56,569 bases of DNA, taken from the NCBI GenBank assembly GCA_006503475.1, contig RSEH01000287.1, positions 1 to 56,569 of the forward strand, read 5' to 3'. Within the stretch, counting starts at the first letter, position 1. The number at the start of each line of letters is the position of its first letter. This DNA is from Stentor roeselii. Lineage: Eukaryota; Ciliophora; Heterotrichea; Heterotrichida; Stentoridae. The notes under the pieces were generated by a model, which searched no databases, was not told the DNA's origin, and worked only from the letters and a program-made list of their open reading frames with translations. The translations under genes were made by a program, and so were the position numbers. Shown here in pieces: positions 1-56,569 of this stretch.

Positions 1-129
1 CACCCTTACGCCCTAACACCCTCCCTCCCTCACTCCCTTACACCCTAACTCCCTAACACCCTAACACCCTCACTCCCTCACTCCCTAACACCCTAACTCC
101 CTAACACCCTAACACCCTAACACCCTAAG
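1..129. repeat. Telomere, 8-bp C-strand repeats at the chromosome's left end
   Basis: From base 3 the sequence reads as 15 consecutive 8-base units and then a partial unit ending near base 129, where unique sequence begins. Seven units are CCCTAACA. The others are variants: CCCTCACT three times, CCCTAACT twice, and CCCTTACG, CCCTCCCT and CCCTTACA once each. The C-rich strand reads inward from the left, as expected for the left end of a chromosome. CCCTAACA permutations are, to my knowledge, the telomere repeat of heterotrich ciliates such as Stentor and Blepharisma. The variation falls at unit positions 5, 6 and 8, while the CCCT core is kept. Confidence 0.93.
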
Positions 130-5663: not shown

Positions 5664-6279
5664 ATGATCGGTTTATTTTATCTTCTTTAATCACTAAAAG
5701 AATCTGAATCAACTCTAAGAGTCGACGTCTCTCAACTAACAACTGTTTTTCATGCATTTATTCTTCAGGATATATACTTGCCTCAGTCCGAGGCCATCAA
5801 AGCTCAGGCCGAGTTGACCCAAATGTAGTGGCAAACATTCAAGAGGCTAGATCAGGCGGAATATCTAATGTAGATGTTTATTTATTTCCCTATATTTCCT
5901 GCGGCAATCCATCTGTGCAGGCTTCTAATCTAGTAACTGCAATTAAAGGACAGAACTACGGAATTATTAGAGTTAATGTTGAAGTTTATACCTGGAGCAC
6001 ATCTTTGACTTCCAATCAAGCTTTTATCTTGAGTATTATTAATCAGCTCAAGGCCTTGTGGCAAACTGTGGAAATTTACACTAGTTATTATAACTGGCAA
6101 GCTATTGTGGGGATTAATTGGACAGGACGCTCTGGGTTGTCTTTGTGGTATGCTCATTAGATAGCAATCTATCTTTTAGTGACTTTTTGCTATTTGGAGG
6201 GTGGAAAACACTGAATATCAAACAGTATGCTGGGGATTAATTGGTTTGTGGAGCTAGTGTTGACCTAAATTACTATTAG
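5664..6279 (+). pseudogene. GH25-type lysozyme pseudogene
   Basis: Read across frames, this is an almost full-length glycoside hydrolase family 25 lysozyme of the type found in animals and protists, which cleaves peptidoglycan and is normally secreted or phagosomal. Pieces in order are a hydrophobic start (ATG at 5664), VDVSQLTTV at 5721, GYILASVRGHQSSGRVDPN at 5768, NIQEARSGGISNVDVYLFP at 5834, YTSYYNWQ near 6090, LWYAH near 6145, FGGW near 6195, and CGASVDLNYY ending at a TAG at 6277-6279. Four lesions break it: TAA at 5688-5690, a one-base loss in the T run at 5746-5750, a one-base loss just after the LWYAH codons (6155-6160), and TAA at 6238-6240. The usual catalytic Asp-x-Glu pair is changed to Asn-x-Glu (VNVE). 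The longest open piece (5828-6160) begins only at GTG. No 15- or 16-nt intron repairs the frame, so I call this a pseudogene. Confidence 0.85.
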
Positions 6280-9900: not shown

Positions 9901-10226
9901 ATAATCTTAAAAAGGTAAAAATTTTTCAAGTCACTGTTCTTGCAATTAGCAGCTGGAGTACTTTTATGTCTACTCTTTATGCTTGGGTCGGAAGTGGTGA
10001 AGAGTTTTTCTTGATTTGTTATTTGGGAATGGGAATTTTAGCTGTGATTGGAGTTTTTTGTTCTTCGAAAGTCAATCAGAAAGGATTTAAAGATGATAAA
10101 GGTCTTTCTATTAGCACATTAATTAAGTTTCAGTTACATAAGGATAGCAATATTTTGTTCATGGATTCTGTCTTTGAAAATCGGAAAATCTTTGAGTTTC
10201 ACTTTGAGAGTGAGAAAAAAAAATAG
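6902..10226 (+). pseudogene. Receptor-like pseudogene: type I PBP-like ligand-binding domains plus polytopic membrane region
   Basis: The gene opens with an ATG and a signal peptide (MKRFFMLIAMSLAF), followed by weak type I periplasmic-binding-protein-like sequence with a typical YFGWNSVILIS strand (about 7240). A second, clearer ligand-binding module starts near 7820 (NRTSEGADSYIPAATWYYNG, then AINEIN) and runs through QISPLASDS and NWKKIIVFSS to about 9000. From about 9095 several membrane helices follow, giving the layout of a class C GPCR-like or related ciliate receptor. The open pieces lie in different frames. Breaks include a one-base loss in the A run 7225-7231, stops and shifts at 7435-7570, another near 7737-7742, a shift near 8017-8033, TAA at 9278-9280, and an extra base in the T run 9385-9391. 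The last two open pieces (8015-9280 and 9354-10226) are long, so decay is recent. Some homopolymer lesions could be assembly errors, but not all. The ligand is unknown. Confidence 0.75.
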
Positions 10227-17023: not shown

Positions 17024-17464
17024 TTATAATCCATTCATTTTAAATACTAAAAGGCCTTTAAAATAAGCTTAATTTTATAGGAAGTTAGAATAAACTAAGC
17101 TTCATTTTGAGAACTCTAGCTTCATTCCTATTAGGATTCATATCCTCATTTTTCATATAAAATATTTCAATCAATTATTTCAACTTGAAATCATTTGAAA
17201 GTGAATCATTTCATTAGAAAAGTATAAAGAATCCATAATCAAGTTCAACAAACGATTTTCTTCGGATTAATCAACTTCCTTGAATTTATTCGCCACTCTC
17301 CAGTGATCTAAAAAATCTCAGCATTTTCGCATTCTAATAAAATAATCTAATGGTATATTCTCCTACTTTGAGCAAAAAAAATTATAATGAAATTGAAATA
17401 TTTAAGGTAAGTTTAAATCAAAAAACCTAAATACAAGTAATTATCTTCTACATATTCATAAAAA
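17024..17464. promoter_or_regulatory. Divergent promoter region of giant paralogs 1 and 2
   Basis: These 441 bp lie between the start codons of two divergently transcribed giant genes, so both promoters and both 5' UTRs must be here. The sequence is AT-rich with A-runs just before each ATG. I see no clear shared motif or inverted repeat that would mark a bidirectional element. Confidence 0.6.
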
Positions 17465-23746: not shown

Positions 23747-23757
23747 ATTAATTTAGT

Positions 23758-29700: not shown

Positions 29701-29937
29701 ATTCTCGTCTTGACCGATGATGATCTCTGGGAAAAGAGCTTCTAGTGAAGAAGGAAAAGGCTCGAGGGTGAAGTGAAGGAAAATCTTTGAAAAAGAGTTC
29801 ACGTGGTTTGAGTCTAGTTCAATTGCACTTACTTGCCAAGATTTTGACTTGGAAATCATGGAAGGGCTTAGAAGGGACTTGGAATTCAACTCGTCGAAAA
29901 AGGAAAAAACTTGGAAAAAAAAGAGGAAAATCAGCAT
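23758..29937 (-). CDS. Giant secreted surface protein, paralog 3 (2,059 aa)
   Basis: This uninterrupted ORF from ATG to TAA has a strongly hydrophobic signal peptide (MLIFLFFFQVFSFF), then the family signature SWQVSAIELDSNHVNSFS near residue 33. Further landmarks are INDGVMIEVTSGTFTG near 1470, GFYIIDWEI near 1546, SCESC near 1649, ATWCLLG near 1718 and SCVLCTSYPVHPEC near 2017. The C-terminus is a hydrophobic stretch (WTMIFFTVFLV) without a cytoplasmic tail. It is the last gene of a head-to-tail trio (5, 4, 3): its ATG lies only 13 bp after the stop of paralog 4, so there is essentially no room for an independent promoter outside coding sequence. By shared motifs it looks closest to paralog 4. 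It converges with paralog 2. The family is unrecognised. Confidence 0.85.
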   Translation of the reverse strand: MLIFLFFFQVFSFFDELNSKSLLSPSMISKSKSWQVSAIELDSNHVNSFSKIFLHFTLEPFPSSLEALFPEIIIGQDENVKNCFLFQDIDLKAICPYSVSTAGIYGPVHFRIRSSENGQVLAEDSAFGYFSVLSNEHEVEDLSVEILLEFQEDQVQVEQVVQMNFSFSLHPGQGLDPGDYFELTLDENFQVDEKEFHLEWTENRPELKKSESFFDLDQKKIMIFQFGSGIQINDQRIDLDFVVKGVVCPRFYKEGNSFDWRLKVLKYATPTVVKHAKGIGPDKEILPGRIRVVYWDSVNQGVKDSVAVGLDLYTELAFISENRILKGMTVEIYAFKVQLCEKIPKTDEMFEDYQGPGKGSQDECFVRMEGDDGQNFQCEIEDKDESSNVTCLALKDVKSGSKVFLYTLTSFKDFSVSITDIFVKDEKGNTVSKLFSSFFSVFKNCELLTVNKLYIAESSSSTTGKNILGDSGSYGLVIELISPEDLSKGDAISIHGLCSKYSIRSEKFISFTSKYYGLLAQGVFFDSTFLDSAEKLDNNKLMIGQGILEITLPNDLEEGESLVIFIGAGKKGAEENVFLPLKPFDWRDFREASVIVKKFFKTYWFSKPVYFNHNENDLEVKIEPFCGNLMSDGHPLMVQFGLPYDVGIESFVGYFMFEEVDLALGTGLQVGEQYPSQSIDTFLIDGGGLRAGLSSFVSHRAKRIIIPFPRQNPSKSIQVTVKIKLDLKETEADMFFGSSSFQYSNKEVEYVSLESKTVQTNSTQLISFQLEPGNYDGTSETQPIIRFLYILPAGFSMLSDSLENAISKEPSQTFQVFHSNKQVSESKTNKFQVSVRIPWFSPNDANITFAFASGKDFDSSQNCFSAQYQPFEILSKNLYFNSFSPKEHLGYSFGETTTTLSLTLDFKGIIEKGSFLKVEVGKTWKTQVVQFSGFIKNELIQGIMQDGTWTSSLTENSYDSSEIQLEVQVTLPKITKSQESLYIKVKSFESVEVLYKTRLSSYTSHKWAGNQNTIKAVTRLTAGNLQVLPSKAKVEVFPNLHMSNYAFLAVQFKSPIKIPKNSVLCIIADFLYDKEVELNTWSSFKVESFQLNDGNLTIFIGEEIQKGQIVEIIKDSAISLNSFGFNEVRLVLNVDGFFVVDDREFDENLPGFQVIQKPDKKIINFEMVPMIKNAGFLNWCRFFLEISSEIREEVTVHLKMNKEFNSFPGPVVFSNEFGNVGFLEAFLENGKEKRFIHCLAEHWIVSCELGYEFFHKTSTYFYIYLKNSKSLYYLSVYLTNSSGFHLVSPYRQTRYIPDSFKTYLNGTINLLSAKASNIESEQSQPKHSITLSGSFDLFLPNTSVLIVQFPSPYNLALTEQKLEFCSLSNELKVLVENSCSLDHNQVILSLAKTKGFNISSNFLTQIEIKGLQTLNGYTRKPFKYESVLNERFSESFMLSKAETEKYSNLLVSTIDYSSFSNLHPVFISFESNDLEELIINDGVMIEVTSGTFTGMFSVTTKDRVLKAKSVKIKGISSFLIKPSEILLTVDFPVGYFSIGTQMLTGFYIIDWEITEIPFKEGERTYRKPGRSLVNVNKKVYDLKFIYELEVPENMTSFEYPFQISSEKQIKPFKYLKVKFLHDYQDVNITFYPDFLIYSDNISVNFVRFSCESCKINEKYEFRAQLSGYSSSFAVEDKFYFTYRPAELASANVSVNFSEITSNSFKVTVFSDSLVSATWCLLGESWNNEEVEESFILKMVQTGLPLTEQYEQYRKNISEVRQKSSDYGIFSRNFESLGKKLIFYGKDLIFQNNEKNIGTFDLLVPNTTFNFIVFLNGLNSSQSLTRSVKTGEYPSHGLVTLTSSKTEDFLISSLSSLLNIEPDRVQVLKSDVKNLQISLSLMIISSVTSKISGYDLITSLKTTVLSQVLESKIEAVQKLTQDMFQDPEWQEGPLWLIDQDSITVNFSSNVFGLISCQVNIYDADLNETLDSQDVLNGIGLNGEENQDNTFVMNVEQDLSSSFALNLSGYPLEVYEISCVLCTSYPVHPECSEVKSEIFYKNEFFNDSATWTMIFFTVFLV

Positions 29938-29950
29938 TTATTAGAATTTT
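29938..29950 (-). other. 13-bp junction between paralogs 4 and 3
   Basis: On the minus strand the TAA of paralog 4 is followed by 13 bases of only A, T and C, then the ATG of paralog 3. This is far shorter than a normal eukaryotic 3' UTR plus promoter plus 5' UTR. Confidence 0.9.
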
Positions 29951-32900
29951 TTAGATTAGATAATAAATCAAAGATAAACACAGAAATATGCTTTTTGAAC
30001 TTGTTGAGTGGGTATCGATTGAGGAGCTACTCACGTTTGAGCAGTTCGGGGTAAATGGAAAGGAATTGCAAAGTATGCAGCTTGTTTCATAAAAATCTTC
30101 AGGATAATCAGAAAAGTTGAAAAAATACTCATAAGCTTCATTTTCTGATACTTGAAAAGAATATGAGTTATTTGAATTATCTTCCCAATTTCTATCTTTA
30201 GAGAAATAAACCTGCTCTTTTGTGATGTTCTTGGAAAGGTCTGGAGATTTTTCTATCTGGCAAAAAACGGTTCCTTCTACGTTTGAGGTGAAGTTGATGA
30301 TTAAACTTTCTTCTTTAATCTTCCAAATTGGTTCATTTATCCATTTTCCTCCATTCATAGATTCCAAGTTTAATTTCGAAATGCTATTCACAACTGCCCC
30401 AATCGCTTCTGACAGTTCTTCATTTGAAAATTCAGAAATATAGTCAAACCCTGACTTTTCATCAGTAATTGACGATAAAATCTTGAAAGACTGATAATTT
30501 TGCAGTCTTCTTCTATCAAAATTAACGAAACTCAAACGTTTAGGGTCAATTTTCAACAAGTTAACCAAAACTTTCTTCATCTTTTCCTTCGACTTCGACC
30601 CTGTAAGTATTACTTGCGCATGAGAAGGAACAGGTTCAGTCATCACAGAAGCCGTTAATTCAGAAGATTTTCCTGAAAAGTTATCAAAATAAATAAAAAA
30701 CTTGAAAAAACTGGCAGGAACTAGTTTCAAAAACTGAATTTCAATTGTTTCATTTGAATCAATTCTCACCTGACTTGAAAAAAATACCCTTCTGCCTCTT
30801 TGAAGTCCTTCAAAAGCGAATTTTTCGTAATCCTCTGAACTTTCAAGTAAATCACTCATTTCTTTTGAGTATCTCAAAAATTGTTCAGAAAATGATCCAA
30901 AAGTTGAATTTTCGTCACTTAATTGAAAAACATGACTAAAAAGGTAAGACTGTGAAAAGTTCTCTGCCAAGTCTTGCAAAAATAAATCACCTGCCAAGCA
31001 CCAAGTAGCAAGGCCTAAATTATTTGAATGAAATTCGAATTTTAACGAGTTTGAAGTGATTTCAGTGACTTTTAGTTGAATAATTGCAGAGTTTTCTGGA
31101 AGTTTCTGAAGAGTGAAGAAGCCTGACACGTTTTTTTCGAAGTTTAAAGAGTTGGGGCCTGAAACTTCTGCATTGAAATGATAGGATTGAAAAAGTGAAC
31201 AATTTAAACATTTTATGGAAAAAAGTTGAGAAATTGTCTGATTAGTGAAAATGAAACTTTTGGGGAAAAAGAGTATTTCTTGGTCTTGATAGTTGTGAGA
31301 CAGGTCGATTTGAATTGATAGAAAAGGAGAATAAAGTGGATTGCTTAAAGTCACTTCATAAGGAAGACTTGTTTCATTCTCAGGCACAAAGATTTCTTCA
31401 GGCAGACGAATTCGGAAAATCGAATTTTCATTAATTTCAACTAAAGTAGCGAGAGGCTGAAGATAAATCAAATCATCTCCAAAGTCAATCTCATGCAACA
31501 CCCAGTCAATATAAAATACTCCAACCTGTGCATCAAAACTCGCTCCAATCCAGAATTCAGTTTCTTTTTCTTTAATGAAAATCTCGCCAGATCCACTTAA
31601 AACCACTTCAGAATTTCTAGGTCTTCCTTCAAGTTTCAAAGATTTCGCCTTAATCATCCCATTTTCAAGTCTTACCTTGAAAGGTCCAGCAGTAGTTCCT
31701 TTATTAACCACGATTTTTTCCCCTTCATTAATAATGATTTTTTCCAATTCACTATTCTGAAAATGCAAAAAGGCGGGTGTTAAATTTGGCATTGAAATCG
31801 CTTCAAAAGTAAAGACTTCAAATTCGCCAATTTTTTCAGTTCGACTCTGGGCAAGTAAAAAATTGCTTGAATAGAACCCATTTATTTTTTTTTCATATAA
31901 AAACTGAGACCTGTTGTAACCTTTCTGCGGAATGACCAAATCTTTAACTAGAAAAGTTGTCCAGTGATTTGTTTCAAATAAAGAAAAATCTACTTCAAGG
32001 CGGTTTTGGTCGAAGTCACAAGAAGTTACTTCGCGAATAATAACTTCTTCCTGAGTGATTCCACAAGAAAGGCCCTGGGTGTTTAAAATAAGTTGAAAAG
32101 GCGGAGGAAAAATAATGAAAAAACTTGAAGCGAAGGGCAAGTCCAAAAAGGCAGAAAAGGTCAAATCTTGTAGGAAGTTGTTCGGTTTACTTGAAATTGA
32201 GAAGTTGTAAACCTCGATTTCTTTCTTTATTTTCGTTGTGAAAAAATCACTTGAAAGGCTTAAGGGCTGAACTGTCACATCTCCTTGCTCGTTTGTGAAA
32301 AAAACATAAGAATCTCCTGTTGGAAGAGGGCTTTTCAGAAGTACTGAAAGGGAAACTCGCTTGTTTTTAGATAAAGAGTTTCCGAGATAACAGGATATTT
32401 GCCAATGTCTTGTCCTGCAGTGAAGATGACTGTTGTTTTTTAAGCTTGCTTCGAGGAAAGTCTCGCCTGGAAGGTCTTCGAATGAATATGTCGGACCTGG
32501 GAATGAGTTGAAACCTGCACCTGCCATGAAATTTAAGAAAATTTCTCCGGTTAACTCATTGTTGAGAATAAAATTGAAATGATGCCAATTTTCAAAACCT
32601 GAATTACGTATAAAGGGCACCATCTCAAAACTTTTAATCTGGACTTCAGGCTCCGGCTTCACCTTAAACCCTTTAATCCTACCATGACTTCCATCCACCA
32701 CAACAGAATCATCCACAAAAACCATTCCATCAAGTTCAACCCTGACCAAAACCTCAAAAATTCCTCTTTTTTTCAAATCAAAAGCAAAATTTTTCACAAT
32801 TTTAACTTCAAACCCATCAGGTAAAGGTCTAAAAGTCCTAAACCTAATTTTTTTCTCCACAAGTTTGACAGAGTCAAACTCAAAGTTAGTCCAAACATTA

Positions 32901-35900
32901 TCAATAAAATTTCTATCCTGCAAAAAATCCGCCTTGACCTGAATAAAAGCTCCAGATTGAATTTGATTAACTTTAAATCGAGTAGCAAAAATCGCTCCAT
33001 AAGTCCCTTCAACATCAGGAAAAGCGAAAGACTCTGCCTGTGAATTCAAAGGTTGAGGATCAGCCGGTATTAAAAAAGTAAAAACCAAATTTTCCTTATC
33101 ATTTTTACCCTGTTCCCATTGAAAACTGATAATTTCTTTAATTTTCATCTGAAACAAGACCTGAACCCATTTAAACCCAAGGACTTCTTTTCCACTTTCT
33201 TCACATATCGGCTTTCGAACCTTCACAATCAGGCGAAGAGGAAAGGAAAAAACTTGCTTCAAGACTTCTGAAGTCCAAATTGAGTCCTTATCAAAACTAC
33301 CTGAAATTCTAGTTTTTTCTATTTCCGCCCAAGCCTCCTCGACCAGGCCTTTCCAGTCGTCGCCGACTTGGAACTTGATGACTGAAGAAGGTCTTAAAGT
33401 CCCGAAATAATTCATTTGAATATAAATCTCGCTTCGAGGCTCGTAGACGGTGAAGGCTTTCATGATTCTTGGGGAAAAGTTCATTATTTTTAAAAGACCT
33501 GGCGAAATCGGGTTGATTTTCTGTTTATAACAAGATAAACACCCTGAGTTTTCAAAGTCTTCACCTGTTGACAGGGCGAGAAGAAGGGTTTGAGACTCTT
33601 GCACTTCGAACCAAGGGGTTGAAACTTCTTCGATGAAAAAATTTGAAAGTTTTTTTGAGACTTTTCGTGAACCGAAAGCGATTTTAAAGGGAAAGTCGAA
33701 GGGAGTCAAACCCAGATGCTTTAAGTTTGAGTTGAGTAAAGAGTAACCTGGAGGTAAAATGTAGACTGCTCGGAGAATGGCTGATGAAGAGTCACTTGAG
33801 TCGTAGTTGTTTTTTTCTAATTTGAAAGAAAGGGTTTTAGGTTCTTGGAAGTTGATTGAAATAGGATCTTGTTGTTCGTATTCGATTTCCTTGCTGTTAA
33901 ATTCTAATGAACTTGAACCTTTAAACAAAATCATCTCTTTATTGTTTACAGTTCTTTTCACTTGCACTTGTAAAGTCTCGCTTTTGGTTAGTTTTGGAAA
34001 AGGAAGAATCATTTTGATAGGATTTTCATTTGAAATTTCATTTCTTATCAGAAAAAGTTCTCCATACTCCGAAAACTTTAGACCTGAAAGGTCAGAAGGA
34101 TACTCGTCTCCTCTATTCAAGGCAGTTTCACTCATCAAATCAAATGAAAACAAGAAAAAAACCTTTAACCCTTCCAATTTCAAATCAAAATCTAAAGAAA
34201 CTTGAATTTCAACAGGTAAGCCATCAAAATGCACATCATTGCAAAAAGGTTCGAACTGAACTTTTAGCTCTTTTTCATTTGTTTGAAAGAAAAAAGGCTT
34301 GGAAAACATAAAAATTGCAGAATTTTTTAACACCCTGACCACAGCTTCTGAGAAGTCCTCAAGTCGAGTTGGGTGCAAAGGAAGACTCAGGTTTTCATTT
34401 GTTTCATTTGACCCTGCTCCAATAAAGAAAACCAAAGTTTTTCCTGCATTTTCAAAAGTTTTTAAAACAATTCTCATCTCTCCAGTGGTCACTTGAAGAT
34501 AATCAGGATGAATTTTCTTGGAATTCTGTGAAAAGTCATCTTTAAACTCAATTCCATCTCCTGAAGAAAATAATCCATAGTAACTCGAGGTTAAAGCCAG
34601 AAAACTCTCAGTTCTTAAAGAAGATGTTGAAACTGGCAAAGACAGAAAAATCGTATCTCCAGGTTCAAGGTCAACTGGGCACTTAAAACTCAAAACAAGT
34701 CCAAAAAGCCCTGAAGAGCCAGCCGTGAACTTTCCTTCTGAGTCACTAGAAGACTGAGCAATATAAAGCTGTTGAACTTCCAAGTACTGAGCAATTTCAA
34801 AAGTCGCATTAAAGATTTCATTACTTTGATCAACAACGTTAAATAAAAAGTCCCTGGTGATTGAAGAGTTGATCATTATTTCAGTTGTCAGAACTGAAGT
34901 CAAAGCGTAAAGATGGACAATTGAAGAAATCTCTTCTTCTGTTGTGCAATTCACAATAGAATAAGTCTCTGCATCAGACACTAAACAGTCCATCATTTTT
35001 CCATCATCAGTCCTCGCCAAAAAACTACAGATTTCAGAAGACCCGGAGCCGTCCTCTGTTAAAATCTCTTGTTTTTCACTTGTTTTATAAGAAGCTGTGC
35101 AAAGTAAAACATTTTGAAACACCAGGGAAAGTGACCCACCTGCAGGAATCAAATGCTGCGCTTTTAAAGACACGACAGTAAAACCGAGATAGTCTTGGAA
35201 GATAAAATTTTTCATTGATTGATCGACTGTCTTCCATGATATTATCTGAATGTCCCCAGCGACCATTTGTGCGAAAGGCCCGAATCCAATGATTCGTTTT
35301 ATCAGGGTGTTAACTCCGAATCTCCAAAACTCTAAAATCCATTCAAAATCTTGATGAGTCACTTTGCTAGGTGCTTGAATTCCATGGACTTGAAAGGTAA
35401 AAGTCGAGTTTTGATTATTTGAATTTAGACCTTTTTCGAAGTTGAAAACTAGAAGAGTTGTTTTGGATAATAAAATTAGTTCGGTGGCTTTTTCGGTCTC
35501 GTCGGTCTGGGTCACCCAGGAGACTTCGGAGGTTTTGGAAAAGTGGAAGTTGGGATCTGAGATTAGTTTCAGGTAATCCCCTGGTCTGAGATGGTCTGAT
35601 TCATTTAGAGAAAAGGTGAAGGTTACTGTTGTTGATTGCTCGACTATCACATGGGTAGTGTTGGCTTCATGGACGTATTCAATGATCAGGCCATCTTGAG
35701 TCTCAGGCTCATCTCCAATAACTGCGAAGTATCCAAAAGTCCTATCTTCAGCAAGAACCTGCCCGCCAGGGACACGACTGATGCGAATATGCACAGGTCC
35801 AAAGACTCCTGACCGACTAGCCGAGTACTTACAACTCGCTTGCCAATCATTGACCTGCTCAGACATGAGAGTTCCAAAGCACATACAAAAATCATTATCT

Positions 35901-36121
35901 CCAAAAACCTTCATTTCTATCATCACCTTCGAAGGGTCCTTCAAGGCCCGCCCTGGGTTGAACTTCAACATCAAAGAACTGAAATTTCCCAAATGATTCG
36001 AATTCAGCTCAATAGGACTCACAGTCCAAGAAACAGGTTCAAAGATCTTCCCTGGACTCAGTCCTTCGAACTCCGTATCTAAAAAACTCATCACCAACTG
36101 AAAAAAAACGAATAAAATCAT
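29951..36121 (-). CDS. Giant secreted surface protein, paralog 4 (2,056 aa)
   Basis: This is an uninterrupted ORF. The start is the ATG at 36119-36121, which alone gives a signal peptide (MILFVFFQLVMSFLD) in register with the paralogs. Using the next methionine (residue 11) would destroy it. The family signature SWTVSPIELNSNHLGNFS lies near residue 31. Landmarks are LSLPVSTS near 485, INEGEKIVVNKGTTAG near 1460, VFYIDWVL near 1534, KCLNC near 1637, ATWCLAG near 1705, an RRRLQ segment near 1865 and SCILCNSFPFTPNC near 2012. It ends in a hydrophobic tail (SIFLCLSLIYYLI). The A of its ATG is the last base of the TAA stop of paralog 5 (TAATG). Its own 3' end is 13 bp from paralog 3. Translation by reinitiation, a shared transcript, or transcription signals inside the neighbour's coding sequence are the possible explanations. 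Confidence 0.85.
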   Translation of the reverse strand: MILFVFFQLVMSFLDTEFEGLSPGKIFEPVSWTVSPIELNSNHLGNFSSLMLKFNPGRALKDPSKVMIEMKVFGDNDFCMCFGTLMSEQVNDWQASCKYSASRSGVFGPVHIRISRVPGGQVLAEDRTFGYFAVIGDEPETQDGLIIEYVHEANTTHVIVEQSTTVTFTFSLNESDHLRPGDYLKLISDPNFHFSKTSEVSWVTQTDETEKATELILLSKTTLLVFNFEKGLNSNNQNSTFTFQVHGIQAPSKVTHQDFEWILEFWRFGVNTLIKRIIGFGPFAQMVAGDIQIISWKTVDQSMKNFIFQDYLGFTVVSLKAQHLIPAGGSLSLVFQNVLLCTASYKTSEKQEILTEDGSGSSEICSFLARTDDGKMMDCLVSDAETYSIVNCTTEEEISSIVHLYALTSVLTTEIMINSSITRDFLFNVVDQSNEIFNATFEIAQYLEVQQLYIAQSSSDSEGKFTAGSSGLFGLVLSFKCPVDLEPGDTIFLSLPVSTSSLRTESFLALTSSYYGLFSSGDGIEFKDDFSQNSKKIHPDYLQVTTGEMRIVLKTFENAGKTLVFFIGAGSNETNENLSLPLHPTRLEDFSEAVVRVLKNSAIFMFSKPFFFQTNEKELKVQFEPFCNDVHFDGLPVEIQVSLDFDLKLEGLKVFFLFSFDLMSETALNRGDEYPSDLSGLKFSEYGELFLIRNEISNENPIKMILPFPKLTKSETLQVQVKRTVNNKEMILFKGSSSLEFNSKEIEYEQQDPISINFQEPKTLSFKLEKNNYDSSDSSSAILRAVYILPPGYSLLNSNLKHLGLTPFDFPFKIAFGSRKVSKKLSNFFIEEVSTPWFEVQESQTLLLALSTGEDFENSGCLSCYKQKINPISPGLLKIMNFSPRIMKAFTVYEPRSEIYIQMNYFGTLRPSSVIKFQVGDDWKGLVEEAWAEIEKTRISGSFDKDSIWTSEVLKQVFSFPLRLIVKVRKPICEESGKEVLGFKWVQVLFQMKIKEIISFQWEQGKNDKENLVFTFLIPADPQPLNSQAESFAFPDVEGTYGAIFATRFKVNQIQSGAFIQVKADFLQDRNFIDNVWTNFEFDSVKLVEKKIRFRTFRPLPDGFEVKIVKNFAFDLKKRGIFEVLVRVELDGMVFVDDSVVVDGSHGRIKGFKVKPEPEVQIKSFEMVPFIRNSGFENWHHFNFILNNELTGEIFLNFMAGAGFNSFPGPTYSFEDLPGETFLEASLKNNSHLHCRTRHWQISCYLGNSLSKNKRVSLSVLLKSPLPTGDSYVFFTNEQGDVTVQPLSLSSDFFTTKIKKEIEVYNFSISSKPNNFLQDLTFSAFLDLPFASSFFIIFPPPFQLILNTQGLSCGITQEEVIIREVTSCDFDQNRLEVDFSLFETNHWTTFLVKDLVIPQKGYNRSQFLYEKKINGFYSSNFLLAQSRTEKIGEFEVFTFEAISMPNLTPAFLHFQNSELEKIIINEGEKIVVNKGTTAGPFKVRLENGMIKAKSLKLEGRPRNSEVVLSGSGEIFIKEKETEFWIGASFDAQVGVFYIDWVLHEIDFGDDLIYLQPLATLVEINENSIFRIRLPEEIFVPENETSLPYEVTLSNPLYSPFLSIQIDLSHNYQDQEILFFPKSFIFTNQTISQLFSIKCLNCSLFQSYHFNAEVSGPNSLNFEKNVSGFFTLQKLPENSAIIQLKVTEITSNSLKFEFHSNNLGLATWCLAGDLFLQDLAENFSQSYLFSHVFQLSDENSTFGSFSEQFLRYSKEMSDLLESSEDYEKFAFEGLQRGRRVFFSSQVRIDSNETIEIQFLKLVPASFFKFFIYFDNFSGKSSELTASVMTEPVPSHAQVILTGSKSKEKMKKVLVNLLKIDPKRLSFVNFDRRRLQNYQSFKILSSITDEKSGFDYISEFSNEELSEAIGAVVNSISKLNLESMNGGKWINEPIWKIKEESLIINFTSNVEGTVFCQIEKSPDLSKNITKEQVYFSKDRNWEDNSNNSYSFQVSENEAYEYFFNFSDYPEDFYETSCILCNSFPFTPNCSNVSSSSIDTHSTSSKSIFLCLSLIYYLI

Positions 36122-36123
36122 TA
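36119..36123 (-). other. TAATG stop-start overlap between paralogs 5 and 4
   Basis: Read on the minus strand, the stop codon TAA of paralog 5 and the start codon ATG of paralog 4 share one A. The downstream signal peptide confirms that this ATG is the real start, and the upstream C-terminal hydrophobic tail confirms that the stop is the real end. Confidence 0.88.
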
Positions 36124-43671: not shown

Positions 43672-46600
43672 TTAACTATATGATTTATTTCTAATATTTA
43701 TCTCAATAATCTCCACTACTGGTTTGATCTGATCTGGAATCAGTCTATTCCTCAAATTCTCAAGTTTAATATAAAATTCCTTCAATTTGAAAAGTAAAAC
43801 AATCAAAGAAATGATATATTGTATACTAATACATGAAATAACAATGAAAACTACGAGATTTTGATAAATTTTCTCTGATATCAATTTTTTACTAGTTGAA
43901 AAAATCGAGAAACAAATAAAAATCAATGAAAAAGTAATTTCAGTAACCAAATTCGTTATCTGACTATAAACATCTTTAAAAGGTCTGTACTTCAACATAT
44001 AAAATATCATTAATATTCCAGAGCTCGTATTAAAAATAATCTGCGCTAAACCTGATACATTCATAAAAAATTGAGTTAAAACAAACTGCAATCTCCTTAA
44101 AAAGTAAAAAACATAAAAATAGACACTTATAATTCCCTTATCATTCTTGAACTCTGAAAACAATCCTCCATATTTCAAAACAACTACCTCTTCAGATATG
44201 TTATCATAAATACAAAACAACAAGAAAGCAAAGAATCCAGGTGTAAAAGCGACAAAGAACTAAATAATCATTACTATTGTCAAGCCAGCTGATAGTTGAT
44301 TAAAGTAAAACTCCACTGCTGAATGGTTCAAAGACTAAATAAAAATTACAGCTTTCAATGCAATTATTGAAAAAACTGCTAGGTCTATATATGCCTGAAT
44401 CCAAAACTTGATAAAAACGGTATATCTGTAGTTTTCTAATAACTTTTCAAACTTCAAACTGAACTTACCTAGTTTAAACTTGCTTAGAAGCAAGATGAAA
44501 GGCCATAAAATCATCAGAATGATTAAAGGTAGGACTATTTTCCCGATATTGACCCAAAAAACTGAAGTTTTTATTCCTGCTGACTTTATTTCTTCACTTG
44601 GTTCAGTTGTAGAGTCTTCATTGAAAAAGTGGATTAAAAAGTTAGGAAGAACATTAAACGCCCCAACTGAAGTAAAAAATAATCTCGTAACATTTTCATC
44701 ATAGTTGCTACTCAAAGGAATGTAAGGAAGGAGCTGCAAAGTTCCAATCAATGCCCAGGAAGCAGCAGGATTCGATATAAAAATAAATCCAATTGAAGTA
44801 GTTGCCATTATCTTTATTGCACCTGAAGATTTTTCAATTAAATTTTTGATTTTTGGGTCGATGTATAAGTATTTAGATAAACTCACTGAATACTTGTATT
44901 TTTGTAGTGATGCATTGAATATAGAGTAAATTGTTTTTTGTAATTTTAAAGTGATTATTGTGTTATTTGATATAGATTCAGTGAATTGAAGATTAATGAT
45001 ATACTCAGAAGATGATCTGGAATATAACTGGAACTTTTGGTTTCTGCCTTTTTGGAAGGTGATTGAAATTTGATTAGCACTGAGAGACTTTAACGGTTCA
45101 CTGAATACCAGTAAAATTTTATTAGATTTGCTGATATTTAATGTTAAGTAAAAGAAATACTCAACACATAAACTGTTTTTTTCTTTTAATCCTTTTTGAC
45201 AGATGCACTCCTCATCAACTCTGATCATATCATCAGGACATTTTTTTAAGCATTTTTGACTGTCAAGTAAGTCAAAGGTTTTATTTGCACAGTTTATACA
45301 CTGGTCCTTTGAACTGCAATTTGCACAAGTTTCATTGCAGCTGATACAGTCTCCGTTTTTATCCATGAAATACTTGTCAATGCAAACACAGTTATTTTGA
45401 TCATCTAATATTTTCTTGGTATCATTACAATCTAGACACTCATTTAATGATTTGCATTTCTTACAAGGTGGGATACACGCTTCACATTGAAAATCTTTTG
45501 ATGAGTTGTTTTGGTAAAAACCATCAACACACTTACAAGTTCCATTAAAACTAAGATAATAATTTTCAGTGCAACTTAAACAGTATGTTGAGTTTTTACA
45601 AGTTTCGCAAGGCATGTTGCACTGCTTACATAATTCATCATTTTCAAAAAATCCTTCTGAACACAAGCACTTTCCATTCATTGCCTTATAGTTTTCCTTT
45701 TTGCAAGTAAGACAATATTCAAGATTTTTACAAGTTTTGCAAGGAGCTTGACAGGCTTTGCATGAATCAAAAGAATTAATTTCTCCAATAGCCCAATATC
45801 CTTCTTTACAAACACAGACTCCATTCACAATCTCAGTGTTAAGTGAAGTACATACTGAACATTTTCCAATACCTGAACAGGTTAAACACGAATTCTCACA
45901 TTTCATACACTCTTTCGACTCTTCTAAAATATAATAGCCTTCCTTACATATACATCTGCCAGCATTTAAAATAGCATTGACATCTCTGCATTCTAAACAT
46001 TTTGAAGAATTCTCACAAGATCGACATTCTGGAAGACAACTTAAGCATATAGAGTTATTTTTGAAGATACTTGAAAAGTACCCATATATGCAAGAGCATG
46101 TTCCGTTGATTATTTCTGCATTATTATCTATGCATGATGTACAAAATGATTCAGTTGAGCATGTATTACATTCAGGTAAACATTTTAAGCAGTTTAATGA
46201 TGAAGTTGAAGAGTTTTTGTAGTAGCCACCTTTACATGAGCAGACTCCGTTTATTACAGTTGAGAAGTTTGATTTGCAAGTCAAGCATTTATTTTCTACA
46301 GAGCAACTATCACAATCATCTCTACAGCACCCTTGTCCACCTGATATGCAACTGCATGAAGACTGGTATGTGCTACCAGAACTTGAATCAATACAAGAAC
46401 AAACCTCTTCAGAACTGAATTCACAGCTTTTACTCGGACAATTGCATTTTATTATCGATGATCCTTTACATCCATACCCTGAAGAACACACATTTCCATT
46501 TGAATCCGTCGAAGTACTCACTGAGTTCGAAGCGCATCCAGTCCCAAGAGAAGGAATCACAAAACTTGGATTGCAATCACTGCAGTTTCCTACAAAACAA

Positions 46601-47274
46601 GTGCTACTTGAAGTACTTAAAAACTGACTTTCGATATTAACTTCCTTAAAAATAGCAAAATACCAAACAAATCCTCCTATTCCAGGAATATTTAAGTTGT
46701 CTGTTCCAATATGAATGTGGCGAACTTCTTCTGAACTATCATCGAAGTTTGATGAATCAGAATGTTTGAGAATAACTGCATCATTATTCTTGATTTTGAT
46801 GATGTTTTGATTGATTTCAAAAATGATCAAAACCCATTTATCTATATAAAATTTACTTGTTTTCCATGAGTCGTTTGGGCTCGTAGCATAATATTGAAAA
46901 TTATATTCCAGTGTCGCACTTGAGGTTGGTTTGTAGTGAGAGATGAAAATAACTTTCTTCGGACTCCATCGGCAAAAAATTAATCCTGGAAATATGCCAT
47001 TTGTGTAGAATATGTCATCTGAAAGAACCCAAAAAACTAAAGAAACTGGATTGGGTATTCCAAAATTTGGTAGTTTGATCATACAATATTTGCTTAAGTA
47101 AACTCCTCGATCGGTAAAAAGACAATCTAAGTTACCCGAAGTAGTATCTTGTCCATTACTTCCATTGCGGTTATTTCCAGAGTAGTCGTAAATGACCTGA
47201 CCATAGTTCTTCCAAAGTCGGTATTCGAGAATCTGAGGTTGAACCACATAGAGCAAAGCGAATATGAGAGACAT
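43672..47274 (-). CDS. LamG-like, Cys-rich, multi-pass membrane protein, copy 1 (1,190 aa after removing two introns)
   Basis: Three exons (47274-44350, 44334-44275, 44259-43672) join in one frame once two 15-nt introns are removed. A signal peptide (MSLIFALLYVVQ) precedes a LamG/concanavalin-like beta domain (about residues 15-220). From about 225 to 700 come many furin- or EGF-like cysteine repeats of the type CxxC(x)nCxxC with NGxCxCxxGY cores. A short beta segment follows, and from about residue 815 there are some nine membrane helices, including FLRRLQFVL and KYRPFKD, which recall the membrane part of fungal and ciliate TRP-like (Pkd2/Flc-type) proteins. That last link is tentative. The architecture fits a surface receptor or channel that senses an extracellular ligand or mechanical input. 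It is the first of three tandem copies, all on the minus strand. Confidence 0.82.
44260..44274 (-). other. 15-nt intron 2 of copy 1
   Basis: On the minus strand it reads GTAATGATTATTTAG: GTAA at the 5' end and TAG at the 3' end, phase 0. Without its removal the reading frame meets TAG. The same intron, identical in sequence and position, is in copy 3. Confidence 0.85.
44335..44349 (-). other. 15-nt intron 1 of copy 1
   Basis: On the minus strand it reads GTAATTTTTATTTAG, phase 0, with its final TAG in frame. It joins ALKA to SLNHSA. The same sequence is at the same place in copy 3 and absent from copy 2. Confidence 0.85.
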
Positions 47275-49397: not shown

Positions 49398-52300
49398 TTA
49401 AACTGGCTTCTTACACAACTTCAGTAATAACCCTTTCACCTTGATTATAAACCCAATGACACAAATCGCATATTGAAAAATCAGTCCAAAAATCAGAAAA
49501 CTTGTGAAGAACATGTCAAAAATATAATCGTCTTTTAAGAATTCAAACAAACTTCTTCCAAGAATCAAAGCAAAGACTAAAAATAACAAAAACTCAATGA
49601 AAATATTAGAGATCATCACGATTTTTTCTTTAAAAGGTCTAAATCTTGCAAGGTATATAAGAAGACAAAAACTTGACACAAGGTTCAAAGATCTTTGGAC
49701 TAATTCAAACTCACTTAAGTAGAGTTGGCTGAAAACAAAAACAACTCTTCTAATTCCTAGTAAAAAGTAAAATAAAGTAAAAATAAACCCTTTTTCGAAG
49801 TGAAATTCATAAAAAAGAGATCCGTACCTACTAGCAAAAGTTGAATCATTAGATGTGATGAGCTCCATGTCTACCCAAAGTGTGATAAAAATAATCACTG
49901 GTGTAGAAATAAACATTGCCTAAATATTATTTACAATAAAAATAAAAGAAAACGATTTATTGATAGATGACTCTAAACTAATATCACTTGTTTTGGTTTC
50001 AAAATTGATAAGTGAATAAGCTCCAAAAAACAAATGATTTTGAAGCCAAAACCTAATAAAAATCGAATACCTATAATTTTCAACTAGTTCTTTCATTTTT
50101 TGGTTAATACTAAAGAGGCTGATCTTTAAAAAAAAAAGAGAAATGGAAATAAAGCAATCATTAAACAAAATATTGTTAAATATGGACCTAGGTTTATCCA
50201 TACATTTGAAGTTACAATTCCAATTTTTGTTGCTTGGTCGAATGGAATATCTGAACTATTTGCGTTTAAAAATAATTTTGGAAGATTTAATGAGTCGAAT
50301 TTGTTTATCACCTTGCAAAACTTGTTCGCAACTGGAGTTAATGGTTTTTGGCTAAGAGGTAAAAAGTAAATCATTTGAAGAGTATTTACCAAAACCCATC
50401 CAGAAGAAGGATTAGAAAACATTGCAAAGAAAAAAGCGATAATATTGCAAATTTGTGCTCCATCCTCAGCTTTTTTTATAATTTCTTGAAATATTTCTTG
50501 AATTACTTCGAATTCATTGAACTTGAGAGAAAATTCATGATTTTCAAGAGTTTTATTTGAAACACTTTGAATACTTTTATCGAATATTAACGTAAAATTA
50601 GTGTCTTTAGGAACAGTAATTTTGAAATTAAATGAAATCTTATAAAAGCTGTTTGAATTTTGAGTAATTTTATATGAATAATGGTTTATATCAGTTCTTA
50701 TCAATACAAGTGAAGAATTTAAACTTTTTCTAAGATTTTCATTAAATTGCAATTCAAGACTGTTGTTTTGATGAATATTTATTGTAAGTTTTAAATATTC
50801 CATGATGCAAGCTTCTTTAATTGTAATGTACCCAGATGGGCACTCACAATTATACCGAATCTCCAAATTGCAAATAATTTTACAATTTCCAGTGACTAGC
50901 AAATACCCATCATAGCAATCAAGACAATCAACTATCCCTTCATTTTCATTAAATTTACAATTCAAGCAATTTTTTGGACAAGGAGTACAATATCCAGTAC
51001 TGTCTTGATAATATCCTTGTTTACATTTGCATCGATTATTATTATCTAAGAACATGTTATGATCTTTGCACTTAAGACATGAATCACTATCTTGACAGAT
51101 GGCACATTCATCAAGACACTTGAAACATTCTTCAAATTTTCTATAAAATCCTTGTTGACACAAACACCTTCCATTTTTCTGTGTAGTAAAAGCATAACTA
51201 CAAGTCAAACAATATGTGGAATTTACACAAGTTTCACAAGGTTTAATGCATCTGTCGCATGAATCTTCATTTTCATAAAATCCTACAGGGCATAAACAAA
51301 TCCCATTGATTGCCTTATAGTTTTCCTTTTGGCAAGTAAGACAATATTTAAGATTTTTACAAGTTTTACAAGGAGCTTGACAGGCTTTGCATGAATCAAA
51401 AGAATTTATTTCTCCGATTGCCCAATATTCTGCTTTACAAATACAGACTCCATTCACAATGTCAGTGTTTAGAGAAGTACATGCTGAACATTCGCCAATT
51501 CCTGAGCAAGTTAAACACGAATTCTCACATTTCATACATTCTTTCGACTCTCCTAACAAATAATAACCTTCCATACATATACACCTGCCAGTATTTAAAA
51601 TAGCATTGATATCTTTGCATTCTAAACATTCTGAAGAATTTTCACAAGTATGACATTCTGAAAGACAACTTAAGCATTTAAAGCTATTTTCGAAGATGCT
51701 TGAAAAGTACCCATGTTTGCAAGAACATCTTCCGTTGATTATTTCTGCATTATTATCTATGCATGATGTGCAAACTAGTGCACTTGAGCATGTATTGCAT
51801 TCAGGTAAACATTCTAAGCAGTTTAATAACGAAGTCGAAGGGTCTTTGTAGTAGCCACTTTTACATAAGCAGACTCCGTTTAATATAGATGCGAAGCTTG
51901 ATTTGCAACTCAAGCATTCATTTTCTACAGAGCAACTCGCACAATCATCTCCACAGCACCCTTGCCCAAGTGATTCACAATTGCATGAAGACTGGTATTT
52001 GTTACCAGAACTTGCATCAATACAAGAGCAAACGTCTTCAGAGCTGAATTCACAGCTTCCACTCGGGCAATTGCATTTTATTATCAAAGATCCTTTACAT
52101 CCATACCCCGAAGTACATATATTTCCATTTGAATCCGTCGAAGTACTCACTGAGTTCGAAGCGCATCCAGTCCCAAGAGAAGGAATCACAAAACTTGGAT
52201 TACAATCACTGCAACTTCCTACAAAACAAGTGGTACTTGAAGTACTTAAAAACTGAATTTCAATATTGACTTCAGGAAAAATAGCAAAATACCAAATAAA

Positions 52301-52909
52301 TCCTCCTATTCCAGGAATATCATAGTTGTCTGTTCCAATGTGATTGTGACGATTTTCCTCTAAGCTATCATCGAAGTTTGATGGATGAGTATGTTGGAGA
52401 ATAACTGCATTATTATTCTTGATTTTGATGATGTTTTGATTGATTTCAAAAATGATCAAAACCCATTCATCTATATAAAATTTACTTGTTTTCCATGAGC
52501 CATTTGAGCTCATAAGAAAATATTCAATTCCAAAATAATATCTCAGTTTCACACTTGAGGTTGGCTTGTAGTGGGAAATAAAAATAACTTTTGTGAGACT
52601 CCATCGACAAAAAAAGATTCCTTGATCTTGGCCATTTGTGTAGAATATGTCATCTGAAAGAACCCAAAGAACTAAAGAAACTGGGTTGGGTAAACCGAAA
52701 TTGGGTAGTCTGATCATACAATCTTTGCTTAAGTAAACTCCTCGATCGGTAAAAAGACAATCGAAGCTATCTGAAGTAGTATTTTGTCCATTATTTCCAT
52801 CGCGGCTATTTCCAGAGTAGTCGTAAATGACCTGACCATAGTTCTTCCAAAGTCGGTACTCGAGAATCTGTGCTTGAACCAAATAAAGCAAAGCTACAAT
52901 CAGAGACAT
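49398..52909 (-). pseudogene. LamG-like, Cys-rich, multi-pass membrane protein, copy 2, with a one-base frameshift
   Basis: It has the same layout as copy 1: signal peptide (MSLIVALLYLVQ), LamG-like domain to about residue 225, furin/EGF-like cysteine repeats, then a membrane region. The first half is very close to copy 1, while the last cysteine repeats, beta segment and membrane part are strongly diverged, as if from another subfamily. The frame breaks in a run of ten T on the coding strand (50128-50137). One more T would restore reading into FLKISLF and the rest of the membrane domain, which is otherwise fully open and ends at a TAA at 49398. One 15-nt intron is present (49920-49934) at the position of intron 2. 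The total would be about 1,165 aa. Since there is only one lesion, at a homopolymer, a sequencing or assembly slip, allelic variation or true recent inactivation are all possible. I label it a pseudogene only because of the break. Confidence 0.6.
49920..49934 (-). other. 15-nt intron of copy 2
   Basis: On the minus strand it reads GTAAATAATATTTAG, phase 0, ending in an in-frame TAG. It joins FIFI to AMFIST. It lies where copies 1 and 3 have intron 2, but the sequence has diverged apart from the GTAA start and the ATTTAG end. Copy 2 has no counterpart of intron 1. Confidence 0.78.
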
Positions 52910-54421: not shown

Positions 54422-56569
54422 TTATTTATTTCTAATGTTTGTCTCAATATTCTCCTCTACTGGCTTGATCTTATCTGGAATCAGTTTATTCCTCAACTCC
54501 TCAAGTTTAAAATAAAATTCCTTTAATTTTAAAAGTAAAACAATCAAAGAAATTATAAATTGTATACTGATGCATGATATAACAATGAAAATTACGAGAT
54601 TTTGGTAAATTTTATCTGACATTAGACTTTTACTAGTTGAAAAAATCAAAAAACAAATAAATATCAATGAAAACGTAATTTCGGTAATCAAATTTGATAT
54701 CTGAGTATAAATATCTTTAAAAGGTCTGTACTTTAACATATAAAATATCATAAATATTCCAGAGCTCATATTCAAAATAACCTGTACTAAACCCGATACA
54801 TTCAAAAACAATTGAGTTAAAACAAACTGCAATCTCCTTGCAAAGTAAAAAACATAAAAATAAACACTTAAAATTCCCTTATCATTCTTGAACTCTGAAA
54901 ACAATGTTCCATATCTCAAAACAACTGCCTCTTCAGAAATCTCATGATAAATACAAAACAACAAAAACGCAAAGAATCCAGGAGTAAAAGCGACTAAGAA
55001 CTAAATAATCATTACTATTGTCAGGCCAGCTGATAGTTGATTAAAGTAAAACTCCGCTGCTGAATGGTTCAATGACTAAATAAAAATTACAGCTTTCAAT
55101 GCAATTATTGAAAAAACTGCCAGATCTATATTTGCCTGAATCCAAAACTTGATAAAAACGCTATATCTGTAGTTTTCTGATAACTTTTCAAACTTCAAAC
55201 TGAGCTTACCTAGTTTAAACTTGCTTAGGACTAAGATGAAAGGCCATAAAATAATCAAAATGATAAAAGGCAGGACTATTTTTCCGACATTGATCCAAAA
55301 AACTGAAGTTTTTATTCCAGTCGACTTTATTTCTTCACTCGGTTCACTCGTAGAGTCTTCACTGAAAAAGTTGATTAAAAAGTTAGGAAGTACATTAAAC
55401 GCCCCAACTGAAGTAAAAAACAATCTCGTAACATTTTCATCATAGTTGCTACTCAAAGGAATATAAGGAAGGAGTTGTAAAGTTCCAATCAATGCCCAGG
55501 AAGCAGCAGGATTTGATATAAAAATAAATCCGATTGAAGTAGTTGCCATTATCTTTATTGCACCTGCAGATTTTTCAATCAAATTTTTCATTTTTGGGTC
55601 GATGTATAAGTATTCAGATAAACTCACTGTATACTTGTATTTTTTTAGTGATGCATTGAATATAGAGTAAATCGATTTTTGTAATTTTAAAGTGATTTTT
55701 GTGTTATTTGATATAGATTCAGTGAATTGAAAATTAATGATATACTCAGAAGATGATCTGGAATATAACTGGAACTTTTGGTTTCTGCCGTTTTGAAAGT
55801 TGATTGAAATTTGATTAGCACTGAGAGACTTTAACGGTTCACTGAATACCAATAAAATTTTATTTGATTTGCTGATATTTAATGTTAAGTAAAAGAAATA
55901 CTCAACACATAAATTGTTTTTTTCTTTGAATCCTTTTTGACAGATGCACTTCTCATCAACTCTGATCATATCATCAGGACATTTTTTTAAGCATTTTTTA
56001 CTATCAAGTAATTCAAAGGTTTCATTTACACAGTTTATACACTGGTCCTTTGAACTGCAATTTCCACAAGTTTCATTGCAGTTGATACAGTCTCCGTTTT
56101 TATCCATGAAATACTTATCAATGCAAACACAGTTATTTTGATCATTTAATATTTTATTGGTATCATTACAATCTAGACACTCATGAATTGATTTGCATTT
56201 CTTACAAGGTGGAATACACGCTTCACATTGAAAATCTTTTGATGAGTTGTTTTGGTAAAAACCATCAACACACTCGCAGGTTCCATTAGAACTAAGATAA
56301 TAATTGTCAGTGCAACTCAAACAGGATGTGGAATTTACACAAATTTCACAAGGTTTAATGCATCTTTCGCATGAATCTCCATTTTCATAAAATCCTACAG
56401 GGCATAAACAAATCCCATTAATTGCCTTATAGTTTTCCTTTTGGCAAGTAAGACAATATTCAACATTTTTACAAGTTTTGCAAGGAGCTTGGCAGGCTTT
56501 GCATGAATCAAAAGAATTAATTTCTCCGATTGCCCAATATTCTGCTTTACAAACACAGACTCCATTCAC
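54422..56569 (-). CDS. LamG-like, Cys-rich, multi-pass membrane protein, copy 3, 5' end beyond the window
   Basis: Only the 3' part is present: about 705 residues in three exon segments (56569-55091, 55075-55016, 55000-54422), ending in TAA. The visible part starts within the cysteine repeats, so the signal peptide, LamG-like domain and early repeats lie to the right of the window. From about 56350 leftward it is nearly identical to copy 1, including the last repeats, the beta segment, all the membrane helices and both 15-nt introns. To the right of that point it follows copy 2 instead (for example NGICLCPVGFYEN and RCIKPCE). The switch between templates within one exon points to gene conversion or unequal recombination. 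Nothing visible breaks this copy. Confidence 0.8.
55001..55015 (-). other. 15-nt intron 2 of copy 3
   Basis: Identical to intron 2 of copy 1 (GTAATGATTATTTAG on the minus strand), phase 0, in-frame TAG if retained. Confidence 0.85.
55076..55090 (-). other. 15-nt intron 1 of copy 3
   Basis: Identical to intron 1 of copy 1 (GTAATTTTTATTTAG on the minus strand), phase 0, in-frame TAG if retained. Confidence 0.85.

Follow-up and report, generated by a model that had tools for sequence, protein, structure and literature searches.

Three giant paralogous genes that follow one another on one strand with next to no DNA between them raise the question of whether they form an operon or are transcribed one by one. 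The genes lie in a 56,569-nt contig of the ciliate Stentor roeselii (RSEH01000287.1), which was analysed over its whole length (hereafter the window) and is contig C216 in a 44.39-Mb genome assembly of 522 contigs. Five open reading frames (ORFs) of 2,056–2,111 codons, termed P1–P5, span 10.7–42.4 kb of the window (Table 1), and three of them, P5, P4 and P3, form the head-to-tail trio in question. As judged from its sequence, the trio very probably consists of three genes that are each transcribed on their own, in a highly compacted somatic (macronuclear) heterotrich genome with near-absent untranslated regions (UTRs); it looks like an ordinary junction within an extraordinary genome, a case of extreme compaction and of no special operon. 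The observations behind this reading are the exact junctions, gene ends that are consistent across the paralog family, a background sample of neighbouring genes in all orientations and a shared element at the starts.

The trio and its gene ends

The P5 ORF (36121..42390, reverse strand) terminates in TTC TTA TAA, the last A being the first base of the P4 ATG (base 36121), and P4 terminates in ATC TAA, after which the 13 bases AAAATTCTAATAA and then the P3 ATG at 29937 follow. Both junctions had been described in the original prediction on this DNA, as a base shared by the P5 stop and the P4 start and as 13 bp from the P4 stop to the P3 start, and both are confirmed to the base (TAATG at 36121; 29938–29950). 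The convergent P3/P2 junction, of 11 bp, is tight like those of the trio and was absent from the list given there. The starts and stops had further been taken as genuine, which is borne out by signal-peptide-like starts and hydrophobic tails across the family except at the start of P5; there, codon 3, 9 or 13 of the ORF could serve, and codon 13 (42354) matches the paralogs in the alignment.

P1–P5 align from the first to the last residue at a pairwise identity of 22–38%, with the initiator methionines aligned within one column and with hydrophobic tails at all five C-termini. A genome search with P1 returned 22 matches, comprising the five window paralogs, 11 further full-length copies in a single ORF each and six partial or degenerate ones. 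The ends were inspected by eye for 10 of the 11 extra full-length copies (the one on contig C126 was left out): the hydrophobic C-terminal tail is present in all 10, and a signal-peptide-like N-terminus begins at the first in-frame ATG in nine and only from a later in-frame methionine in the tenth (C170). One copy (C516) is preceded by a same-strand 148-codon ORF that ends 19 bp ahead of its first ATG, and another (C83) is followed by a same-strand ORF that starts 29 bp past its stop. For the other eight, no same-strand ORF of at least 100 codons was found within 30 bp (about 0.4–0.6 kb was read on each side); one of the copies (C58) is followed by a same-strand ORF whose ATG is 80 bp beyond the stop. 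The crowding of the trio is therefore no rule of the family, because eight of the ten other copies are without a close same-strand ORF.

Neighbouring genes in the window seemed to read through TAG, a read-through that would make the TAA and TAG stops of P1–P5 doubtful. In each case, however, the TAG closes a 15-nt intron of the GTAA.....ATTTAG type. A 15-nt GT..AG stretch was found at seven of 24 in-frame stops between open stretches, as against at most five for every other in-frame length (9–39 nt), and GTAA..TTAG pairs peak at a total length of 15 (21, versus 5–16 at 29 other lengths from 11 to 40). A looser GTA..TAG pattern gave no clear peak, which speaks against the 15-nt signal, and the reversed-sequence control, with higher counts at every length, was uninformative. 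Introns are rare in the genome sample, and lengths besides 15 nt may occur. The stops at 140 trusted background ORF ends comprised 78 TAA, 49 TAG and 13 TGA, TGA being rare, and an in-frame stop (one TAG) was seen in only one of 17 HSP70 matches. A variant or context-dependent code, as suspected from the TAGs at 43672–47274 and 54422–56569, was rejected on the strength of the 15-nt introns together with the HSP70 matches, and we conclude that the genetic code is standard and that the stops of the trio are true stops.

Short junctions in every orientation

For the background, 28 contigs contributed a 10-kb piece each (280 kb; L002–L021 and L042–L049), and junction lengths were determined between unspliced ORFs that do not overlap and have 120 or more codons. 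Gaps were measured from the first in-frame ATG, so that some are underestimates, convergent gaps being independent of starts. Skipped were 24 same-strand neighbours (those of the window included) with an end that was uncertain through an intron or a missing ATG, and, for similar reasons, an uncounted number of convergent and divergent pairs. The median gap was 206 bp between tandem (n=67), 44.5 bp between convergent (n=26) and 128 bp between divergent neighbours (n=31), and gaps of at most 25 bp, called tight below, made up 17, 11 and 8 of these, respectively. Among the tandem gaps, eight are of at most 13 bp and one is of at most −1 bp; two convergent pairs overlap by 4.

The tight share does not differ detectably by orientation (chi-square test, P=0.24), and tandem pairs show no excess over the rest (Fisher's test, P=0.43). 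Operons would be expected to restrict short spacing to same-strand neighbours or to enrich it there, which was not found among the 67 tandem, 26 convergent and 31 divergent gaps; instead, few-bp junctions occur in every orientation, as expected of a compact genome, with starts proven by homology only partly. Against the background of their own genome the trio gaps are ordinary. A 1-base overlap (TGATG) recurs in L003 and a 0-bp junction (TAA directly followed by ATG) in L010, four more tight trios were found in the 280 kb (L004, 9 and 13 bp; L014, 15 and 22 bp; L015, 22 and 6 bp; L019, 16 and 12 bp), and 11 of the 28 pieces contain at least one tight tandem pair. Because convergent and divergent pairs are equally tight, tightness is no operon signature. 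Moreover, closely divergent neighbours cannot be operons, so their signals must either overlap the neighbours' coding DNA or fit into a few bp, and the trio consequently needs no operon.

In the eight tight divergent pairs the first ATGs are 1, 5, 8, 12, 15, 16 and 21 bp apart, plus one 60-bp overlap that is possibly a false start. Divergent neighbours with first ATGs 1–21 bp apart (L017, L046, L048, L020 and L003; homology support for the starts of tight divergent pairs is best in L020) pose a promoter puzzle more striking than the tandem trio.

To identify the tight neighbours, 20 proteins from tight tandem groups were scanned against Pfam, of which four were without a match at 1e-3. Unrelated conserved genes are among the tight neighbours: an ODAD1-like gene is followed at 0 bp by one with MON1 longins, RCC1 at 9 bp by an actin-related gene, a coiled-coil-like ORF (sub-cut-off match) at 6 bp by a short-chain dehydrogenase (SDR), a DUF382/PSP protein at 15 bp by an EF-hand kinase and this one at 22 bp by another, and an ORF without a Pfam match at 25 bp by a Lon N-domain. 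Thirteen of the 17 tight tandem downstream proteins were scanned, and in five of these (MON1, SDR, actin, RING and Lon) the domain starts no more than 11 residues from the ATG. Related tight neighbours are the paralogs of the trio and the two EF-hand kinases (L014); the other tight pairs with domains on both sides carry unrelated ones. A second scan took in 12 proteins of tight divergent pairs (six of the eight pairs) and eight proteins of tight convergent pairs (four of the 11), with 10 of the 20 giving no match at 1e-5. The best-supported tight divergent pair encodes pantothenate kinase and NIP7, with start codons 21 bp apart and the NIP7 profile running from residue 1; the 5-bp pair encodes a La-domain and a MORN protein, and at 12 and 16 bp one partner of the pair carries a domain.

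Transcription of the trio

A shared element was found at the starts. Directly ahead of the ATG, ATAA is found at 61% of the spaced starts (n=76), at 71% of the tight tandem ones (n=17) and at 88% of the tight divergent ones (n=16; gaps to 30 bp in this class, where sites can be shared within a pair and are partly non-independent), as against 9% of 2,848 ATGs inside coding DNA. TATAA is clustered in the last 10 nt ahead of the ATG, averaging 0.26 per gene among 62 spaced and 0.39 among 33 tight genes; further upstream it amounts to 0.00–0.09 per gene and does not peak near −30. A motif adjoining the ATG, as in compact genomes, is therefore present as ATAA/TATAA. The P4 start, CTTATAATG, contains this element, the P5 TAA being part of it, and its last nine letters recur in three of the 76 spaced starts. 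The TAATG overlap would arise because the start element itself contains TAA, used as the upstream stop. The first 20 nt past stops are also AT-rich (about 76% at tight and 77–78% at spaced ends, versus 62.5% in coding DNA), which would be compatible with a 3′-UTR of about 20 nt.

T8 runs at 36101–36108 and 29915–29922 (reverse strand) lie among the codons for the signal peptides of P4 and P3, a short way past the stop of the preceding gene, and T8-type runs are rare, occurring in 0.4% of 3,421 coding 45-mers. A role as U-rich 3′ signal was rejected, since not even T6 was found at any of 17 tight tandem or 22 tight convergent ends (among spaced ends it is present at 7.5% of the tandem, n=40, and 25% of the convergent ones, n=20), and the runs are regarded as a curiosity that comes with Phe-rich signal peptides.

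Taken together, the junctions and the start element suggest that each gene of the trio yields its own mRNA. Transcripts would start a few nt from the ATG, at or beside the ATG-proximal AT-rich element (approximately [T]ATAA[A]ATG), which would mark the start of transcription in addition to that of translation, and would be polyadenylated about 0–25 nt from the stop codon. The poly(A) site of P5 would then lie at its stop or within the first codons of P4, and the promoter of P4 within the 3′ coding end of P5; the same would apply to P4 and P3. The original prediction, which had left the choice between a polycistronic transcript and signals inside the neighbour's coding DNA, is partly supported: tight junctions in all orientations favour the second option, and nothing positive emerged for the first. 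Its view that either would be unusual for nuclear eukaryotic genes holds with respect to most eukaryotes and not within this genome, where such junctions are ordinary. On the 3′ side that view is weakened further by a report on heterotrichs, whose 3′-UTRs have a median of 21–23 nt, the shortest found by its authors, some mRNAs being polyadenylated directly after the stop and thus having no 3′-UTR (PMC4967479).

Several points weigh against separate transcription. The trio is made up of paralogs, for which co-expression within a tight group would make sense. The start element could be translation context alone. A 14-nt matrix places only 53% of spaced starts (left-one-out) above the 95th percentile of internal ATGs, and 41% and 31% of those in tight tandem and tight divergent pairs, respectively; among the window starts P3 ranks above practically all internal ATGs and P2 above 99.7% of them, with P4 (92nd percentile) and P1 (91st) below the 95th. 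The 20-nt stretch past tight tandem stops is partly the gap itself, and in the 45 nt past the stop the AT fraction is 0.67–0.69 at tight versus 0.73–0.76 at spaced ends. Finally, gaps taken from first ATGs leave the starts of many tight pairs unproven, including the 1- and 8-bp divergent pairs, in which no Pfam match was found on either side, and the start is likewise unproven at the 1-base overlap of L003, where the downstream domain begins only at residue 114.

Were the trio a true operon, a primary transcript of about 19 kb would run through P5, P4 and P3 and be translated by termination and reinitiation, or else be divided into one mRNA per gene, whether trans-spliced or not. The single strand, the paralogous products and the junctions of −1 and 13 bp would suit such an arrangement, and the space of about 1.3 kb upstream of P5 could house a shared promoter; yet tight junctions are equally common in convergent and divergent pairs, several other tight groups combine unrelated genes, and P5, P4 and P3 hold 109, 97 and 104 ATGs, respectively. 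Leaky scanning is implausible because P5 and P4 carry so many, efficient reinitiation past ORFs of 6.2 kb is not expected, and an operon is on the whole improbable. Reinitiation is reported to drop as ORF length grows (PMC11892635). It is likewise unlikely that the genes start near their own ATGs and terminate sloppily, giving rise to some bicistronic mRNAs of which the first ORF alone is translated; for this Microsporidia-like overrun there is a precedent in a compact eukaryote genome with near-zero 5′-UTRs (PMC2803860), and the trio geometry permits it, but heterotrich 3′ ends are described as short (PMC4967479) and, as a weaker argument, the first 20 nt past stops are AT-rich even at tight junctions.

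An artefact, with the ORFs being exons of one giant gene or misassembled at their joins, is hardly credible. GT..AG stretches that would fuse the frames do exist, yet the shortest measure 38 nt (P5–P4) and 70 nt (P4–P3) and the identified introns 15 nt, and fusion by splicing was rejected. Every unit also has its own signal-peptide-like start and hydrophobic tail, and the eleven other full-length copies, ten of them inspected at both ends, each consist of one ORF of equal size. At the P4/P3 junction, a 201-bp probe finds a single place in the genome, and repeat collapse is unlikely because the mutual identity of P3, P4 and P5 is only 31–32%.

Separate transcription might be carried one step further, to a rather doubtful proposal in which [T]TATAATG/ATAAATG would act as punctuation with a dual role, initiating a nearly leaderless mRNA and supplying the stop of the preceding gene, whose mRNA would have no 3′-UTR. 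ORFs would then be stacked one on another as in bacteria, in any orientation and each as its own transcription unit, with the TAATG of the trio as the limit case. If separate transcription itself is right, then in the 44-Mb somatic genome of a free-living eukaryote roughly one in four of the same-strand neighbours measured would be no more than 25 bp apart, and some divergent start codons about 20 bp or less, so that promoters and 3′-end signals would have to coexist with the constraint on protein-coding DNA. The minimal non-coding punctuation of a eukaryotic transcription unit would become testable, for which the trio is handy with its long, unmistakable ORFs.

The macronuclear genomes of the heterotrichs Blepharisma stoltei, Condylostoma magnum and Stentor coeruleus are among the closest systems and have gene-dense DNA and tiny introns in common with the present one; the ciliate Paramecium tetraurelia has a different genetic code. 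The telomere of CCCTAACA type, the 15-nt introns and the standard code are in keeping with a heterotrich. The telomere unit reported for Blepharisma is of the CCCTAACA type found here, and the genome of Blepharisma stoltei measures 41 Mb versus 44 Mb here (PMC9942806). Blepharisma reads UGA as Trp and stops are context-dependent in Condylostoma magnum (PMC4967479), whereas the code here is standard. The parts of the literature covered here, including those on Loxodes (PMC11441545) and the Blepharisma germline (PMC9942856), describe compactness and short UTRs and contain no junction statistics for heterotrichs.

Among microsporidia, Encephalitozoon cuniculi is alike in its 5′-UTRs of <7 nt, in a motif that directly precedes the start codon and in control elements that have moved into neighbours, and unlike in being a parasite with a 2.9-Mb genome and a CCC-like motif as opposed to ATAA (PMC2803860). 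Overlapping transcripts were proven there by rapid amplification of cDNA ends and reverse-transcription PCR (PMC2803860). Paramecium tetraurelia is reported to have a compact genome with overlapping UTRs (median 19 nt at the 5′ and 44 nt at the 3′ side; PMC5485702), although UTRs that long would outrun the junctions here. Bicistronic loci of green algae likewise combine a nuclear genome with short same-strand spacing between ORFs, but the first ORF is described as short (median 291 nt in Auxenochlorella), AUG-poor and bypassed by leaky scanning (PMC11892635), in contrast to 6.2 kb and about 100 AUGs here; with 6,234 nt and 109 ATGs, P5 is no such first ORF.

Protein family and other genes of the window

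Table 1. Features of the P1–P5 locus and the contig end (positions in the window)
Feature	Positions	Strand	Remarks
Telomere	1..128	+	Left contig end; degenerate repeats of CCCTAACA type
P1	10688..17023	-	2,111 aa
P1/P2 spacer	17024..17464		Divergent, 441 bp
P2	17465..23746	+	2,093 aa; opposite orientation
P3/P2 junction	23747..23757		Convergent, 11 bp stop to stop
P3	23758..29937	-	2,059 aa
P4/P3 junction	29938..29950	-	13 bp (AAAATTCTAATAA); provides the ATAA start element of P3
P4	29951..36121	-	2,056 aa; signal-peptide-like start and hydrophobic C-terminal tail
P5/P4 junction (TAATG)	36119..36123	-	P5 stop and P4 start, 1-base overlap, within the start element TTATAATG
P5	36121..42354	-	About 2,077 aa from Met codon 13 of the 2,089-codon ORF; TAA at 36123-36121

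No Pfam family scored above its curated cut-off in any of P1–P5, where matches were sub-cut-off only, and a profile search of PDB sequences gave a single match (E=0.46). AlphaFold models of the N- and C-terminal thirds of P1 are mostly beta and of low confidence (mean pLDDT 65.8 and 65.1, respectively). Foldseek returned integrin ectodomains and mastigoneme, complement and central-apparatus proteins with E-values down to 1e-10, which were taken as generic and not as the identity of the protein, given the low TM-scores (about 0.1–0.3) and the many multi-domain beta proteins. Signal peptide, hydrophobic tail and models point to a secreted, possibly glycosylphosphatidylinositol-anchored giant surface protein that may be built of immunoglobulin-like domains. 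A match to the C-terminal region of P1 on contig C386 (5389–6897; 43–48% identity) contains 31 in-frame stops and may be either DNA that uses another code or a decayed relative, in a somatic genome that is otherwise compact.

Three paralogous genes for Cys-rich, membrane-protein-like products lie at 43672–47274, 49398–52909 and 54422–56569 (reverse strand). Two of them share the same two 15-nt introns in the C-terminal part, and the middle one (49398–52909) has one 15-nt intron and an apparent frame break at a T run near 50130. On the forward strand, the gene at 6902–10226, presumably 7TM receptor-like, is split into several frames by TAA and TGA and either holds more introns or is a decayed copy, and the ORF at 5828–6160 is one that we take to resemble the GH25-type lysozymes of protists.

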